From Isoetes taiwanensis (taxonomy: Eukaryota > Streptophyta > Lycopodiopsida > Isoetales > Isoetaceae), in the NCBI GenBank assembly GCA_021234155.1, contig JAJEKV010000024.1, positions 17,197,030-17,261,029 of the forward strand: a stretch of DNA of 64,000 nucleotides, read 5' to 3'. The notes under the pieces were generated by a model. It saw nothing but the letters and a program-made list of their open reading frames with translations, ran no database searches and was not told the origin of the DNA. Of this stretch, positions 16,968 to 57,431 are shown piece after piece. The number at the start of each line of letters is the position of its first letter. The stretch's first letter is position 1. Both the position numbers and the translations under genes were made by a program.

Positions 16968-18973
16968 TCAAGCCTTCACCATTCCCATTTCATGAAGGCA
17001 TTCCAAAAACCTTTTCTTTGGAAGAGGTTTAGTTAAGGCATCTGCTGTCATAAACTGAGTTCTCAAATGCGTAATCACAATTTTCTTTTCTGCCACCTTT
17101 TCTCGAGTAAAATGATATTGGATCTCAATATGTTTGGCTCTTGAAAAGTTCCCTGGATTCTTTACTAAACTCACTGCTGCACGGTTATCATTGTATATTT
17201 CAGTAGGTCTGCGCTGTTCATACCCAAGTTCATTCATAAGCCTCCTGAGCCATATGGCTTCTTTTGTAGCTGCACAGACAGCCATGTACTCTGATTCACA
17301 AGTACTTACTGCGGTAGCTTTTTGCTTCTTACTGCTCCAACTCACAACTCCCCCTTGCAGCATAAAACAGAAGCCTGTGCGAGACTTACGAAGGTGAGCT
17401 TCCCCTGCATAATCAGCATCAACATACCCCTCCAAAAGAGGTGGAGAAGAGGGAGAAGCAGAATAACGCACACCAAGCATAGGTGTACCATGTAGGTAAC
17501 GAAGAATGCGCTTAATACCTTGCCAATGTTCAGGAAGAGGATGCTCTTGGAATTGACTAAGAGTGACAACACTCTCCGCAATATCAGGCCGTGTGCACAC
17601 CATAAGATGCATTAGGGATCCAATCTGACTGCGGAATGGAATCCCAAGATCAGAATCAGAGGCAGAATTGCCATGAATAGTACCTGATAAACTTGCTGAG
17701 GAAGCAGGTGTGCTAACACTTTTGCTGTACGTCATATTACATCTCTGAAGCAAAGATTCAACCGCTTTAGATTGATGCAAAGTAATAGTTCTCCGTTCCT
17801 TATCGCGAAGGACCTGCATTCCCAAGAAATATTTTAATTCGCCCAAATCTGTCATATGGAAGCGCGTAGCCAGATTTTGCTTTGTCTGAGCCATCAAAGC
17901 AAAGTTGTTAACAGCAAGAATTAAATCATCTACATACAGCACCACAATGATAAGGTGAGTGCCACATCGTTTGGAATAAATGTTCCAATCAGCTTCACTT
18001 CTTTGAAAGCCATGCGAGGTAAAGAAGTCATGGATAGTTTGATACCATAGATAGCCTTTCTGAGTTTACAGACCTTGTGAGGATCGGATACATATTCCTG
18101 AGGCTGTTGCATGTAAACATCATCATCCAAGTTACCATGCAAGAAAGCAGATTTTACATCCATTTGTTGGAGATCCAAGTCAAGGGCTGCTGCTAATGCA
18201 AGAACGACACGAACAGATGTGAGTCTCGCAACGGGGGCATAAGTTTCTTGATAGTCAATGCCGGCCTTTTGGGAACAACCCCGTGCAACAAGGCGCGCCT
18301 TATACTTTGAGATGCGATTATTCTCATCAAATTTTAACTTGTAGACCCATTTACAAGTAATGATTTTTCTGCCAGGGGGAGCTGTGCAAAGATCCCATGT
18401 ATTATTATCAATCAACGACGCATATTCCTCATCCATGGCGCATTTCCAGTGAGCACTCTCTTTGCTGTTTATTGCAGCTATATAATGCGCAGGTTCATGA
18501 TTGGAGACTGGAGTGTGGAAAGCTAGAAAAGCAGCACCTTTAGGTTTCTTGCTGGCCAAATAGTCAAGCATTTTTTCAGTAGGTTTTCTTGGTCTGGAAG
18601 ACCGTCGTAAGGCCACAGGAGTAGGGATCTCTTGATCACTTCCTTCCCCGGTTGATTCTGGCTCTGAGGGCACTTGTGGCTCACCATCAGATTCTTGATC
18701 AGATTCTTGATCACTATCAGGGTCGGAGCCAGAGGATGTTTCAAGGTCCAAAGGAGCATCAAAAGATTGCTCAAACAAAGGATCATCAACAGTTTTGCTT
18801 GAACGGCCAAAACTGAAATCATGCTCATCAAATACCACACTTCTTCGGATGATCATTTTTCTTAAAGAAGGGACATACAACTTGTATCCCTTTATGGCAT
18901 CTCCATATCCAACAAACATGCAAGGATACCGGATTTTCGCTCCTCCTTGGAGATATGAACATAAGCCTTGCAC
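16968..18973 (-). pseudogene. copia pol: end of integrase, reverse transcriptase and RNase H (two frames)
   Basis: The upper frame (18973-17930) holds the integrase tail, a Ser/Asp/Glu-rich linker and the RT start with TCKWVYKLKFDENN, ARLVARGCSQKAGIDYQETY and MDVKSAFLHGNL. The lower frame (17945-16968) holds the YVDDLIL catalytic box, then the RNase H region (GYVDADYAGE, STCESEYMAVCAATKEA, NDNRAAVSL, KHIEIQYHF). Frame is lost after the YGIK box near 18040, where a few residues normally present are missing. The RT therefore cannot be translated whole. RT copies the element RNA in virus-like particles in the cytoplasm. Confidence 0.9.
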
Positions 18974-20610
18974 CCAAATATTCTCAAGCCTTCAACTGTA
19001 GGCTTGACGCCACTCCAAGCTTCTTCAGGAACCTGATCAGCAACAGCTTTTGTGGGTACCCTATTGAGAATATATACAGCAGTATTGACTGCCTCGGCCC
19101 AAAATCTGTGACTAATGCCCTTTGAAAGGATCATGGCTCTGGCACATTCAAGAACTGTCCGATTCTTCCGCTCAACAATGCCATTTTGTTGATGCCCATA
19201 TGCTACGGACGTTTCATGTCTGATTCCTGCATCCAATAAGAAGTCACGAAATGCATCATTAATAAATTCCCCACCTTGATCTGTTCGCATGATTTTAATC
19301 TTTCTATCGCTGTAATTTTCTGCAAGTGCCTTCCATGCTTTGAAGTGAGAAAACACCTCTGATTTACGTTGAAGAAAATAAACCCAATTTTTACGAGTGA
19401 AATCATCAATGATAAGCAAGAAGAAACGAGAACCCCCAATAGATCGCCGTCTAGCTGGCCCCCAAAGATCCATATGGATTAATTCCAAAGGAACCTTTCC
19501 CCTTCTGTTGCTCTGTTTTGGAAAAGGTTTTCTGCTCAATTTGGCTAAGGCACAACCTTCACATATGCCAGATGATGCTTTGATGCTTGGAAGATGCTCC
19601 ACATATTTCTTCTCATTCATTTGTTTCAAAGCCTGAAAGTTCACGTGCCCCAATCTCTCATGCCAAATCTGATTTTGATCAACCACAGATGCACTCAAAG
19701 CTGTGTTCGGACTGCTGCACCAATCTAAACGATAGAGAGTACCCTCACAAATACCCTTTGCAAGAAGTTTACGCTGCTTATCCTTTATGTTGCACTGTCT
19801 GCCACCAAACTTAGCAGTTAGATCAGCATCGTCCAATTTTGAAATAGACAAGAGATTCACTTCAAGATCTGGTACATATAATGTGTTCTGAAGTTGGACT
19901 GTTCCTGTGGGCAGAGTTAGATCAACAACTCCAATACCTTTTATGTTGAGTTTCCCCTTTCCAATTTTTACTTTCCTCCCACATGAGATACTCTCTAGAT
20001 CTTTGAACAGGTCCTTTCTCCCAGTCATATGATCGCTGGCTCCAGAGTCCAAATACCATTTGCCTTCGGGAATTTTTGCTAGAAAACCCACACCATTAAT
20101 TGACCAAACGTCCTCCCATGCATCTACTTTGGATTGTGCTATTTTCAAATATCGGGTTCCTTGATTGAGGATATTACCCAGCAAAGACATTAGTCTGGAT
20201 AGAAGGATGGTTAGATACAAGACTAAGTTTAGAAGGCCTTGCACACAAGTGTCTAACTGTAACCATGCACAGCCTTCTATGCGTGTGGCCATGAATGCCC
20301 TGGAAGAAGAGATCATTGATTCATCACTTGATTCCCTGTCAGATTCATCTGAAGAAATTTTCTTTGAAGCTTTATGTGCCCGTGCATACTCACGTTTCTG
20401 ATTTGTTTCCCTTTTTACTTCATTCTTACGAGTGCTCTGTCTCCTTGCCTTCCTCCTATCTGGTTCTGAGCAATCTCTTGCAATATGACCAAGTTTATTG
20501 CAATTGAAGCATTTTCTAGTCTCGCTTCCTTCATGTTTAGCATTGAATGCATGTGTCTCCTTTACAGCAGAAGGCTTCTTTGCTAAAGCCTGATTTGATT
20601 CTTCCATCAA
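18892..20610 (-). pseudogene. copia gag end, protease and integrase
   Basis: In order: zinc knuckle CFNCNKLGHIARDC (~34-47), aspartic protease WYLDSGASDHMTG, GAG-pre-integrase HERLGHVNFQALKQ, then the integrase core with DLWGPARR (Asp), RTDQGGEF (Asp) and NGIVERKNRTVLECARAM (Glu). The frame is entered through a TAG codon at 20613-20611 after gag. It is lost near 18945, where the C-terminal integrase continues in another frame. The integrase joins the cDNA to chromosomal DNA with a 5-bp staggered cut, matching the TCAAT duplication. Confidence 0.9.
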
Positions 20611-21240
20611 AATCTATTGACATGCCCATTCAAGCTCTACATGTTCAGAGGACCCTATGAGATTTTTCACTCCATTGTACGTTGGTGTTAAACCAAGGAG
20701 CAGTGCTCCAACAATTAAGTCATCATCCAATCCCTTCTCCATGCCATGCAACTGAAGAGCAGCGGATTTTATCTTGGAGATGTACTCCTCTGCCGATGCA
20801 CAATCTTTAAGCTTTGTTGTGAAAACAATGGCATACAGATTGGCCTGCTGAGAAAAATGCTTTCTCTTATAAATTCGTGTAAGAAGCTCCCACGCTTCTT
20901 TTGCACTTGATGCAGCTTCAACCTGAGCTATCATAGTATCATCTAGATACTTCATGATCCTGTTTCGGGCCTGCCAGTCTTTCTGGAGCCATTTCAGCAC
21001 TGCCTGTCTGTCAAGCTCGACAGACTTGGAGTGATCTTCACTCCCTCCTGCCTTTGTGTCTTGAGTCATGCCTTTCAGCACACGTGCAGACGTGAGGGCC
21101 TGAGCCTTTTGTGACACATGTACTGGTTTTGGTTCATCCCCTGAGACGATTTGCCACAAACCCTTCTCTGCAAGCTTGCCTCTTACCTTAATGAACCAAT
21201 AGAAAGCGTTCCCATGGTTCAGTGTATCAATCTTTCCCAT
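20611..21240 (-). CDS. copia gag (capsid) region, 208 codons
   Basis: It starts MGKIDTLNHGNAFYW 60 nt inside the 5' LTR/PBS region. It contains the UBN2/retrotrans_gag-like core (NRIMKYLDDTMIAQVEAA, SAKEAWELLTRIYKRK, AEEYISKIKSAALQLHGM, ALLLGLTPTYNGV). It ends at a TAG that lies in the same frame as the downstream zinc knuckle and pol, so gag and pol are separated by one in-frame stop only. That stop could be a mutation or a readthrough site. Gag forms the particle that packages element RNA. Confidence 0.85.
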
Positions 21241-22207: not shown

Positions 22208-24839
22208 ATGGTTCACCCTCATGCCCATCTAATGGGGGATTATTTGCTTGAACTGGGTACGATATGTGGTTTATCAATCATGAATGGGATCAGCAGATTC
22301 CCAAACTCAAGAGGTTCTACTTGCTTTACTCCGTTGGGGGAAAGTACAGTAGATTATGCAATGTCCCTCAAAGACTCTCACCTGGTCACAGATTTTGAAG
22401 TAAGCAACAAGTTGCCAGAATCGGACCATGCATATTTGAAAGTAGTCCTAGAAGGGACCACCACCAAACAGCAAACCGACAGGGCTTTCCAACCCAAACT
22501 AAAGCTGGATTACACAAAGCAAGCAACTTTCGAACAAGTCGTGTCAGATGGGCTCGCTCAGGCCAAATGGTCGGGGATCCTGGAGGCAGATGCTACCTTG
22601 CTGACTGAAGTTTTGATTCATGCTGCAGGCGCAACTTTTGGATACACAAAGCAAAGAAAACCAGGGCACCATTGTAATAGCTGGTGGGATCAAGATTTCC
22701 GAAGAGCCAGGGCAACACTGCTTAAAGGGAGCAGAATTAAACCAAAGTGGTATAAGGATCTGATCAGAAGTAAGAAGCGCGCATTTTTTAAGTAGAAACA
22801 ACATTCATTAGGCCAGTGCTTTATGAAATACCCAAAAGCATTCTGGTCTAAACTTCTTTCCACAAACGTATAGGGATCGGTGACAATAAACGGCATGTTA
22901 GAGATGGTGCAAACACTCTATCATCAGGAAGGAGCAGGATCAATGAGAAAACTCAGCATTAATGAACTCATGTTCACTGAAACTGATGTCAAGGAAGCTC
23001 TTGCACACATGAAAAATGGCAAGGCCTCAGATCTGCAAGGAATGTGCATTGAACTGTTCAAGTGGAGAGGAGATAATCGGATCACACTGATTACGCACCA
23101 ATTAAATGAAGCTGTCATTAATGGCCTACCACAAGTCTGGCGGGAGAACAAGATCATTCCGATCCACAAATCTGGCAGCAAGCTAGATGCCAAGAATTAC
23201 CGCACAATTCTGGTAGGCAACATGTTTTCCAAGCTGCTAGGCAGTCTGCTAGAGTACAAATTGAGCCGTTGGGCTGATGAAAACGACAAAAGAGCCATAT
23301 CTCAAGCAGGTTTCCGACGAAATCATAGTACTCTGGATCATGCACTAACTCTCCGAGTAATGTCAGAAAGAGCTAAATCACCCAGGAAAGTTCTATGCAT
23401 GGCTTTCATTGATTTCTCAAAAGCTTTCGATACCGTGCCCAGGGATGGCCTTGATAAGAGGATGGAAATGCTAGGTGTGCCAGAATCCTTGCGGAGCTCA
23501 GTAGCTTGCTTATATGAGGGTGTGATTATCAGATTGGGAACTGGAGAATCAGGCCTAGTACATAGCACCATAGGTGTACGACAAGGCTGCCCCCTGTCAC
23601 CTACCTTATTCGGCCTGTATGTTGACGAACTTGAAGAATGGCTTCAGAGCAGAGGAGTGGATGGCACCCAACTAGGAAACTTTGTGGTCCAACTCTTACT
23701 GTATGCAGATGACGTGATTCTTCTAGCAGACAGACCTGAAGTATTGCAGCGCCACCTTGACGTGCTGGCACATTTCTGTAGGGAGAAGAAGATGCAGGTC
23801 AATATGGGGAAATCCAAGATAATGATATGCGGGACTGTAAGTAGACCATATTTGTTTTACAATGGGGAAAAATTAGTAGTAGACTGTTACAAATACTTGG
23901 GTTTAGAGTTCTGCGCTAATTATAGATGGAAGGAGTGTATAAAGAAAAGAGTTGCTGGAGGTAAAGTGGCTCTATATGGCATGTTGAGAAAATGCCATAG
24001 ATTGTACCTCACGGATTGGGGGCTGAAAAAAAATGCTATTTAAGACTTTGGTGCAGACTGTAATACTGTATGGAGCGCCAATCTGGGGACCAGCCACCTC
24101 AAAAGAAAATTGGGACCAAATAGAAGTTGTTTTGAAGACTTTTCTGATGGAGGAATTGGGCATCAAACGACAAACCCCATATGCAATAATGCTGGCAGAG
24201 GCAGGACTTATTCCATTGGAAGCTGAAGCCTTAAATCTTACAATAAGTTTTGTAAATAGGCTGCAAAAACAAGATGATAGCCGCCTATCCAAGGAAGCAA
24301 TGAACCAATCAGTGGAATCGGGCTGGTATAAAGATGTTATGCAATGGGCTGAGAAATGGGGTATCACGACAAACAATTGGCCAGATACAGATGTGGAAGC
24401 GAGGGATTTGGTGCAGACGCTAGCTGTAAACAAAATATGGGCCAAATCAGGATCTCGGATGGACTATTACAGGGAAGAAGTCAATGCAATGGTCGTGTAC
24501 ACAACCCAGCCATATTTGGGATCGAAGGTACCAAGATGTACAAAACAGATTATCGCCAGATACAGAACCAGCTCTCACCGTTTGGGAGTCGAGACATGGC
24601 GATGGGCAAAGATTCCAAGGGAGGACCGAAAATGCATGTTCTGTAACTCAAGTGCAGTGGAAGACGAATCACATGTCTTCCTTCATTGCTCAGCATACCA
24701 GCACTTAAGAGATATATTTAACATCAGTTCCAGCTGTTTCCACTCATTGTTAGAGATGTCGCCTAATGTTTTAGGCGCGTACATGAAAAAGATAGAATCT
24801 CATAGATTACTCTTGTTAAAAGCAAGACAGATGTTGTAA
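22208..24839 (+). pseudogene. LINE A ORF2: end of EN, reverse transcriptase, zinc-knuckle C-terminus
   Basis: EN end: ILMGDY-like HLMGDYLLEL, STCFTP, STVDYAM, ESDHAYLKV (catalytic Asp-His) at 22208-22440. RT: MKNGKASDLQGM, AGFRRNHSTLDHAL, FIDFSKAFDTVP, GVRQGCPLSPTLFGLYVD, LLLYADDVILLAD (23700-23735) and KSKIMICG. C-terminus: CMFCNSSAVEDESHVFLHC knuckle near 24635. Lesions are TAG at 22793, TAG near 22868 and a frameshift in an A run near 24030. The enzyme would nick the target and reverse-transcribe LINE RNA there. Confidence 0.9.
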
Positions 24840-54442: not shown

Positions 54443-55385
54443 AGTGGAAGAAAACTATTTCCTTACAAGAACACGTGAAGATCCAAAACAATGAGAATAA
54501 GAAGACGAATACCTCGCAGTTCTGATAGTTCATTGGATAATTTATCTTTGCAATGCTTGCAGTGTCAAGCTTGCTCTAAAAATTACCTCCAAAATAAACC
54601 AAATCTTTAAAGAATGGAGTAGAAATGCGGAAAAGCAACAATCAAGGAATCGACAAGTTTGATGACTAGAAAAGGCATGGATCATAGTTACAACTATGAG
54701 CATGAGGGGGATCGTGAGTTTGATAAGGAGCATTTGAGGAGCATGATAACTTTGAATGGGAACTTGAACTCCGTTGCTCATGAGTCGTGTCGTTTGAGCC
54801 CACTCCACTCTTGTACTAATCTTCATTGAAGATCTTTGCTCTATTCAGAAGAACTTCATGTATCCAAGAATCAATTACAAACATCAAAGCTTTTTTGGCC
54901 TGCAAAGATTAGCAAATATCATTTTTTAAATTGTAAGAATCGATTACCAATAATATTTCTTACACTTCCGAATTACATGTTTTGGCTCTCGATTGTATGC
55001 TCTAGATCACCAATCACCAAAAAGGCAGGATACGAGATAAGAAGATGATTTTTTTGATCGAAAAATGGGTCCTCCAAATCGATGGATTACGTCCATCCAA
55101 AAAATCGTCTTTGATAGTGGAAACCCTTCTGGCGTCAAATTTGGAAACACTTCTGGGTTTGTTGATAATTTGGAAGGATTTTCAATTTGAAGCTTGGAAG
55201 GGTTTCCACTTCTAGGAACTCTAACCCAATTCGGGCTGAGATGGTTTGAGCAGGCTTCTATGGGAGACCAACATGAAACATGGTTTGAGGGGCTTCTATG
55301 GGAGACCAACAAAAATTGGGGCATACGTAAAACCATAGGTTGTATTGTCTATTTTCTAAAAGCTACCATATGTGGGCGCCATTCA
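54443..55385. other. no gene recognised upstream of the PMEI-pectate lyase gene
   Basis: AT-rich sequence with local duplicated phrases near 55240-55310 (cttctatgggagaccaaca twice). The start of the next gene's promoter is inferred just downstream. Confidence 0.4.
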
Positions 55386-55393
55386 TATATATA
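55386..55393 (+). promoter_or_regulatory. TATA box candidate
   Basis: TATATATA lies about 150 bp before the chosen ATG at 55542. It is the only good TATA motif close upstream. Transcription start is not shown. Confidence 0.4.
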
Positions 55394-55541
55394 GCCTACT
55401 AGTATGAAAAAAATGCTGTGATGGACAAGAAAATGCAGGCGCTTCATCTTCTACGTGGGCGTTTCGTTAGAAAGAAGCCCAAGGGATCGTTGCCTCCAGC
55501 TATTTCATCAATCCAATCCTCCTGCAGCTCAGCTATTGCAA

Positions 55542-57431
55542 ATGAAGGCCATGACACCACCAACAGCTCTTCATCTCCTTCTGATTCTCATATTTCTGTC
55601 GTCAGCTTTGGCCAATCTTAACAGTCTTGAAGCCAATGAAAGAGACGCAGTAATGAGCTTGGAAAAAGCCCAACAAAATTTGCAGAAAGCTGCAGCGGTT
55701 CATTTGTCAATCGGAAAATGTGATGTTCAAATTGCCGCTGTTATTTCTTCTCTGTCTAATGCCGAAACTTCTTTGCTTCAAGATCAGTACTCTGATGCCT
55801 TGGATCAAATTAGCAGCGCCCAGAAAACCCTTTCCGACTGCAACGAGGCGCTGGCATCTAGCAATGTATATTAGTCTTTGCTTTTTATATATTGATTGAT
55901 TTCATGGCCTTCGAAAATTTCTGATACAAATTTTTGCCTCTTAAACAGGTGCATTCAAGCAAAGCGTTACTGTTTCTGACGAAACAAGCATCAGCGTATA
56001 TAGAAGAATCCCAAAACTTGATCAATTTGTTTGCAACACAGGATCGAGCAAATGCGCCAGTACCAGCGACTACGGGTAAGAAATATTTACGGAAAAGATT
56101 TAGGGTTCTTGATAAATTAGGGCAAAAAAAAAGAAGAAAAATTTAGGGCTATTTTCTTTCAGTTTCAGATGCGCAAATGGGAGGGGACATAGACAGGTGT
56201 GTTGTAGATGGAAGCAAATGCCAGTATTCAAGCTGTGGAGTTGGGAGGCAGCTGCCGATATGCGCAGTAGGGTTTGCAGCAGGGGTGATAGGAGGGGCAA
56301 AAGGTAAATCTTATGTTGTAACAAATGAAGAAGATGATCCAAGGGATCCCAAAGAAGGCAGCTTAAGGTATGGCACAAACCTTGCAAGCACAGAACCATC
56401 AGGAATATGGATCACATTTAGCAGAGACATGGTTATCCGCCTTCATGAAATGCTTTGGATCAATAGCTCTACCACCATCGATGGCCGCGGGTTTAACATT
56501 ACCATCACAGGTCGTGAGCTTGTCCTTGGAGCTGTTAGCAACGTTATCCTCCATAACTTTCAGCTCAACACTGTCGGAGAAAGCGATACCGTGCATATTT
56601 TCTCAGGATCATCTAAAATTTGGGTTGATCATGTCACTTCTTTTGATGCTAACCTTGGCCTTATTTCTGTCTCCCAAGGTGCCACAGATGTGACAATTTC
56701 TAACTCTTTCTTGACCAATAAGGACTATAATATGCTTCTAGGAGCATCTGATGCAGATATAGAGGACAAAAAAATGAGGGTTACAGTTTACCGAAACTGG
56801 TTCAAAGACTCAAACCAGCAGCAACCACATTGCAGGTATTAATATCCAATGCCATTTTAATTGCAGTATTAAACCCTGCAGAATTATGAATTACTGATGA
56901 AATGCAGGCTGAAAATCTAGATTTCAATCCTTCCATAAGGCATAAATTTTTATCAAATCCATTTCATTAGTACAATATAGTCTTGCAAATTTAAACTTGC
57001 GTGGTACTGATAAAATTCGGTCTTGCAGATGGGGATACTGTCATGTGATCAACAACTTATATACCAATTGGGGGGATTATGCAATTGGAGCTAGGGCCAA
57101 TGGCAAGGTCCTGTCTGAGAGCAATGTGTTCATTGCAGGAACAAAAAGGGAAGTGACTCCTTGGCATGAAAACATGGGACCAGATTTTGACAATAGTGCA
57201 ACTATTCAGTCTTCTAATGATCTGCTGCTAAATAGCTCCACTTTTCAGCAGATGCAAGGCCTTGATCCTGCTCATACTGGTGCCATAAGTACCAGCTTGA
57301 CCCCCCAATATGAGAGCAGTGCCCATTATCCACCTGTTCATCCCACTAGCACCTTGGCTGCGCTTGTGCAGCTCTGCTCTGGAGCTCTTTTCGGCAAAAA
57401 ATTGGAAGAGTGTCAGCTCTTCCAGATTTAA
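55542..57431 (+). CDS. secreted PMEI-like/pectate-lyase-like fusion protein (508 aa), 4 exons
   Basis: Exons 55542-55865, 55949-56075, 56163-56835 and 57029-57431 have GT-AG introns and join in frame to TAA. Residues 1-24 form a signal peptide (MKAMTPPTALHLLLILIF...). Residues ~25-150 resemble the C-terminal helices of pectin methylesterase inhibitors, with two Cys (GKCDVQIAAV, TLSDCNEAL) and an YSDALDQISSAQ block. Residues ~157-500 are a plant pectate lyase beta-helix: SLRYG, IWITFSRDMVI, TIDGRG, IWVDH (304-307), VTISNSFLT, NMLLGASD, YAIGARA. Calcium/catalytic positions have changed: the DGLxD Asp pair is Leu315/Ser319, and the first Arg of RxPxxR is Gln370 (Arg375 kept). It is likely a secreted non-catalytic wall protein. 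The upstream ATGs at 55418-55455 would mask the signal peptide, so I chose 55542. Confidence 0.85.

Follow-up and report, generated by a model that had tools for sequence, protein, structure and literature searches.

What does a plant gene encode when its pectate lyase fold is kept in an open frame but residues of the active site are replaced, and why would such a fold be preceded by a helical domain that resembles pectin methylesterase inhibitors (PMEI)? The locus that raises this question lies in the lycophyte Isoetes taiwanensis, in a window (the whole stretch of DNA analysed, 64,000 nucleotides) on contig 1028 of the assembly (G000). The genome searched for relatives comprises 1,658,258,908 bases in 1110 contigs; it includes a radial-spoke gene, with four exon matches on a single contig, in keeping with a plant whose sperm swim. 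The first-pass annotation had proposed a clean four-exon frame at this locus, and this was upheld: between 55542 and 57431 on the forward strand, four exons with GT..AG ends join into 1521 bases that encode 506 amino acids and a stop. Exon 3 has an alternative in-frame acceptor that moves its start to 56163, giving two forms that differ by 2 residues. From the hydrophobic N-terminus we infer that the protein is secreted. The features of the gene are as follows.

55385..55394, forward: candidate TATA-like stretch, read from the letters some 150 bases ahead of the start codon
55542..55865, forward: exon 1, with the start codon, a signal-like N-terminus (about residues 1-24), the first PMEI-like helices, Cys60 and Cys100; donor gtatat
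55542..55613, forward: probable signal peptide, residues 1-24 (MKAM...ALA), read by eye from the translation
55617..56075, forward: PMEI-like helical domain and linker, residues 26-150, spanning the intron at 55866-55948; assigned from matches to PF04043 below its cut-off in paralogues, the Cys alignment to 1xg2_B and decoy tests
55949..56075, forward: exon 2, with the last helix of the N-domain, then the linker
56169..56835, forward: exon 3, with a Cys-rich N-cap followed by the greater part of the PL1 beta-helix
57029..57431, forward: exon 4, with the end of the beta-helix, the C-terminal tail and the stop

The presence of a pectate lyase beta-helix in the same open gene was confirmed by Pfam, with a match to PF00544 over residues 248-407 (E 3.4e-27, 95.9 bits for a cut-off of 24 bits). 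This was the only Pfam match of the window protein above its own cut-off; Pec_lyase_N was not matched in Pfam at E up to 10, nor was a pectinesterase domain found in Pfam, and an NCBIfam search gave no informative match. The closest solved structures are Jun a 1 (1pxz, E 5.7e-41) and VexL (6fi2, E 4e-27). A search for close bacterial relatives was unproductive, as none of the 48 stretches matched by pattern in genome contigs encodes one, and Jun a 1 remains the best solved match. With Jun a 1 and plant PL1_1 proteins (PF00544) the window protein shares the beta-helix, the N-cap motif GF..GG..G..YVVT and the RxPxxR region. It belongs to a clade that differs from them in lacking the DGLxD pair and the substrate Lys and in having an extra N-terminal domain, and the window copy also lacks the catalytic Arg. 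In PelC the catalytic base is the Arg of this motif position. The replaced and retained positions are given below in PelC numbering, in which we take D131 (the Asp290 column) to be a calcium ligand and K190 (the Tyr337 column) to be the substrate Lys.

56585..56587, forward: Asp290, aligned with the calcium ligand D131 of PelC and kept; Asp in all five open genes of the family
56654..56656, forward: Leu313, replacing the first Asp of DGLxD; Leu in 15/15 other subfamily loci
56666..56668, forward: Ser317, replacing the second Asp of DGLxD; Ser also in 14/15 other loci of the subfamily, with Ile in L038
56726..56728, forward: Tyr337 at the position of the substrate-binding Lys; Phe in the four other open paralogues
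56819..56824, forward: Gln368-Gln369 (CAG CAA) where RMPHCR has the catalytic Arg followed by Met; Arg-Met in the four other open paralogues

The substitutions reported by the first-pass annotation are thus all present: the DGLxD site reads Leu313-G-L-I-Ser317 (the replaced codons start at 56654 and 56666), and Gln368 (codon at 56819) stands for the first Arg of RxPxxR, so that both the calcium pair and the catalytic Arg expected of a calcium-dependent plant pectate lyase are absent. A sequencing error at the catalytic Arg is unlikely, since the change from Arg-Met to Gln-Gln involves five base differences from the AGG ATG of the sister paralogue.

To establish which of these losses belong to the window gene itself, the same columns were read across its family. 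Four further paralogues with open exons (C1066, C925, C1050 and C907:44.2, or L009, L013, L014 and L015) have the same kind of PL domain, 57-66% identical to that of the window. Over 15 subfamily loci, the window apart, the first calcium Asp column holds Leu in every case, the second holds Ser in 14 and Ile in one, and the substrate Lys column holds Phe in 13 and Tyr in two. By comparison, DGL[IV]D is kept in 11/11 other PL1 loci (10 classical and one group-V-like, L019), a selection from the PL1 matches of the genome. The loss of the calcium Asp pair, two of the three calcium ligands, is therefore not the window gene's own, because it is clade-wide. The remaining columns are more varied. That of Asp131 holds Asp in six loci, Asn in four and Ala in three, with a gap or no coverage in two, and that of the catalytic Arg holds Arg in seven (L009, L013, L014, L015, L033, L034 and L037), Asn in four and His in one, three loci not being covered. 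To the extent that they were read, the loci with His or Asn at the Arg column are broken or incomplete, and so are L033, L034 and L037. Both Asp131 and Arg are found in the four open paralogues, in which the whole RMPHCR motif is identical; the window copy has the Asp but is the sole one of the five with Gln. Read from these alignments, the only motif losses private to the window copy are that of the Arg and that of the adjoining residue.

An IQ-TREE analysis based on a portion of the PL domain groups the five open genes in a single clade, separated from nine classical PL1 genes by a branch of 1.6 substitutions per site (support 100); a further classical gene, L048, was not matched by the extraction pattern and was left out. 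In an unrooted tree of a longer part of the PL domain, the window gene pairs with C1050 (support 88), and an attempt to root the clade internally gave supports of 37-42. The clade is also about 20 residues shorter ahead of the first calcium Asp than most of the classical genes aligned, although the classical L042 is itself short by 15.

We then considered the N-terminal domain. A search of the genome with that of the window returned eight matches, two of which are the window gene itself and six of which lie elsewhere. The helical domain is present in three of the open paralogues, C1066 (E 8.5e-10), C925 (E 0.018) and C1050 (E 0.18), the last two being accepted because they are placed ahead of PL1 exons. 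Matches were also found at C907:38.99 (L011), with a PL1 copy that contains stops, and at C1038 (L010), where only the start of the PL exon is visible. At C907:44.2 (L015; 44200500-44205500), where a signal-like start and a PL domain of the clade are seen, an exon-1 match to the N-domain was not found within the 5 kb examined. The sixth match, C1041 (L012; 8055000-8059800), is a solitary open N-domain exon with a signal-like start and a donor site, no PL1 match being listed on the contig; it is possibly a free-standing PMEI-like gene.

The kinship of this domain to PMEI was assessed by several approaches. PF04043 was not matched by the window protein or by its N-domain alone in Pfam at E up to 10, nor by the N-domains of C1050 and C1041. 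It was matched by two of the five family N-domains, those of C925 (E 1.9e-4, 22 bits) and C1066 (E 0.004, 17.7 bits), both below the curated cut-off of 29 bits. When a profile of the family N-domains was compared with the PDB, kiwi PMEI (1xg2_B) came third (E 0.15), below two COP9 subunit 1 sequences (E 0.0059 and 0.0082). Its alignment with the profile is gap-free and runs from Cys to Cys, with a spacing of 40 in both, the pair in the window protein being Cys60-Cys100. PMEI genes are abundant in this genome (71 matches), and 11 of their domains served for comparison (12 were retrieved and one was dropped for stops). Against these, hhalign gave a probability of 4.4% and a score of 21.0, which exceeds those of 200/200 column shuffles, narrowly (best 20.8). 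With hmmsearch, 3 of the 11 real PMEI domains scored above all 1062 reported rows from 1100 shuffles, and a fourth, at 10.5 bits, fell below the best shuffle at 10.6. Homology to PMEI above chance is hence found for the family N-domains and not for the window sequence alone.

A single-sequence model of the 83-residue part encoded by exon 1 shows two long helices; a Foldseek search with it returned no PMEI and nothing at E <=0.001 among the best 50 of 340 matches, mostly designed or unrelated bundles. Like the PF04043 inhibitors, and as in kiwi PMEI, the family domain has a helix pair with Cys-x39-Cys; unlike them it lacks the N-terminal hairpin and the Cys pair of that hairpin, so that of the two Cys pairs of a PMEI only that of the bundle is present. 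Each test is modest when taken alone, and together they favour a divergent PMEI four-helix bundle that lacks the N-terminal hairpin. The domain had been annotated as a PMEI-like half-domain; its kinship is supported by the paralogue matches, and such a bundle would describe it better than half a domain. The lack of a PMEI profile match had been named beforehand as a finding that would refute the annotation. That is literally what the window protein gives, and in our view the matches of its paralogues outweigh it.

The pairing of a PMEI-like module with a pectate lyase had been put forward as one not known to be a standard architecture. The two are indeed joined in one gene, but the same arrangement in three other open paralogues makes it a trait of the family rather than of this copy, and these paralogues, together with two common intron positions, rule out mis-joined genes or a lone fusion. 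The intron comparison took in two junctions: that between exons 3 and 4 coincides in 5/5 open genes, and that within the N-domain has an identical codon position in the window gene, L013 and L014 and is shifted by one codon downstream in L009. Among the PL domains of the five open genes, pS is 0.70-0.87 and pN 0.23-0.30 (dN/dS is not quotable, as dS is infinite in 6/10 pairs and 2.0-2.6 in the others). Because intron positions recur and synonymous change greatly exceeds nonsynonymous change, the frame of the window gene is not a matter of chance. Private changes over 326 ungapped columns number 12 in the window gene, 7 in L009, 9 in L014, 10 in L015 and 20 in L013, and by this count the window copy is not accelerated overall. 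Three of its 12 fall in the 7 active-site columns of the alignment (hypergeometric P 0.0012), or two in 6 columns when that of the Met is left out (P 0.017), these columns being taken from known catalytic sites but scored after the changes had been seen.

Several known systems offer points of comparison. PMEI-PME proteins likewise have a PMEI-like domain before a beta-helix enzyme domain that acts on pectin (PMC8990755, PMC3741192); in the window protein this second domain is a PL1 and not a pectinesterase. PLL group II proteins are described as carrying an extra N-terminal Pec_lyase_N (PMC5487484); the likeness is that of an additional N-terminal domain, and the difference is that Pec_lyase_N is missing here. 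Group V is described in the same source as divergent and poor in motifs; in poplar its members lack a predicted signal peptide and carry Arg instead of His at one substrate residue. Set against that description, WVDH and a hydrophobic N-terminus, judged here by eye and not by a signal predictor, rule out a group V assignment for the window gene; the group-V-like locus of this genome looks to be L019, which has WVDR and keeps DGLID. A small PLL clade found across land plants has been reported (PMC4108027), and the passages of PMC3017822 and PMC12693861 reached by a term search contain nothing that bears on a possible identity of that clade with the present one. No report of a PMEI-pectate-lyase protein appeared among the matches listed in the open-access PMC literature, as far as their matched text goes. 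As for processing, PMEI-PME linkers carry an RRLL-like motif, and none was seen by eye in the linker of the window protein.

The system that bears most directly on catalysis is that of the bacterial VexL (PL1_13), which is reported to be metal-independent, as is argued for PfPL1 (PL1_2), and whose Arg is described as the catalytic base (PMC11229556). Both share the PL1 fold with the window protein and neither has a PMEI-like domain in the aligned parts. At the DGLxD site VexL reads DRLLN, so that of its calcium pair the second Asp is missing and the first is in place, as are the Lys and the catalytic Arg. Catalysis can, then, survive an incomplete calcium pair, and the lost chemistry claimed by the first-pass annotation has to be apportioned differently: a loss of calcium Asp residues common to the clade is no proof by itself, and it is the loss of the Arg that makes lyase catalysis by the window copy unlikely. 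A metal-independent PL1 would keep the Arg in the absence of the calcium pocket. The Arg is present and both Asp residues are absent in C1066, C925, C1050 and C907:44.2, although VexL itself has the first Asp; the window copy has lost the Arg.

We give about even odds to the following reading, drawn from sequence comparison: the window gene belongs to a divergent plant PL1 clade and encodes a secreted protein that binds pectin without cleaving it, and its PMEI-like module serves as a pro-region or a partner-binding domain. The protein would be secreted and fold as a bundle and a beta-helix, a galacturonan chain would be held in the old groove without elimination, and the copy could shield pectin from its paralogues or compete with them. 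That it is still a lyase, through another base or on a different substrate, is very unlikely: the copy retains Arg373, which is the motif's second Arg, and most of its fold, but the base used by VexL and PelC is gone along with its neighbour, and its column holds no basic residue. The idea of a recently decaying, functionless copy deserves equally little credit, since the frame is open, the splice sites are intact, pN is well below pS and private changes are not in excess, even though the family includes many broken copies and fragments. It is improbable, too, that the dead lyase serves to tether to pectin a PMEI-like module able to inhibit PME. The Cys-Cys spacing is that of kiwi PMEI and the bundle helices are the part that aligns, but the hairpin and its Cys pair are missing and the domain is poorly conserved, at 25-43% identity to the domain of the window gene. 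Since the Arg-keeping paralogues carry the same N-domain, the module is more likely to be a pro-region or partner-binding domain of the family than an invention of a dead copy, and by analogy it may work attached to its enzyme domain, in the role of the PMEI-like pro-region of PMEI-PME proteins.

It is unlikely, although the chance is far from negligible, that no member of the clade is an enzyme. In that case catalysis would have been removed already in the ancestor, through replacement of two calcium ligands and of the substrate Lys and through a shorter loop, and the Arg would be a leftover that was lost last in the window copy. As a precedent VexL goes only part of the way, since it has the first Asp and the Lys that the clade lacks, and inactivity may extend to all members; the aromatic residues at the Lys position and the long branch to the classical genes point the same way. 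What speaks against a wholly inactive clade is the identity of the Arg and of the rest of RMPHCR in the four other open paralogues. In our main reading, the members that keep the Arg may be active lyases that dispense with the usual calcium site. A doubtful extension of this is that lycophytes possess PMEI-domain pro-lyases, that is, PL1 enzymes without the usual calcium site and with a PMEI-type pro-region, with at least one dead paralogue that would have been retained to bind pectin and regulate the active members. Plant pectate lyases are generally described as dependent on calcium, which ties pectin cutting to the calcium of the wall. If our reading is true, a PMEI module has been joined to a second class of pectin enzymes besides the pectin methylesterases, and a set of Arg-keeping and Arg-less members within one species would offer a test for calcium-independent pectin lyases and pectin-binding pseudo-lyases in plants.

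Some further observations were made in the course of these searches. At five loci (L049-L053, on C1053, C1081, C812, C112 and at 11.7 Mb of C1050), a repeated element of about 1-1.5 kb carries a piece of 136-232 bases of the C1066 (L009) lyase exon, with 97-98.5% identity to it and common flanks in 5/5 loci, which looks like the capture of gene sequence by a transposon. Several more matches to the lyase exon in the genome have the same extent as this piece, and stops. Two arrays of classical pectate lyases, at 12.30-12.56 Mb of C907 and 3.36-3.65 Mb of C1043, are apparently collinear, with near-identical scores and spacings, and look like a large duplication or an unmerged haplotype. Elsewhere in the window, a scan of 10 of the 39 long frames identified Copia-type (RVT_2, with integrase and zinc knuckle) and RVT_1 reverse-transcriptase frames at 16968-18065 and 18892-20613 on the reverse strand and at 22874-24043 on the forward strand.
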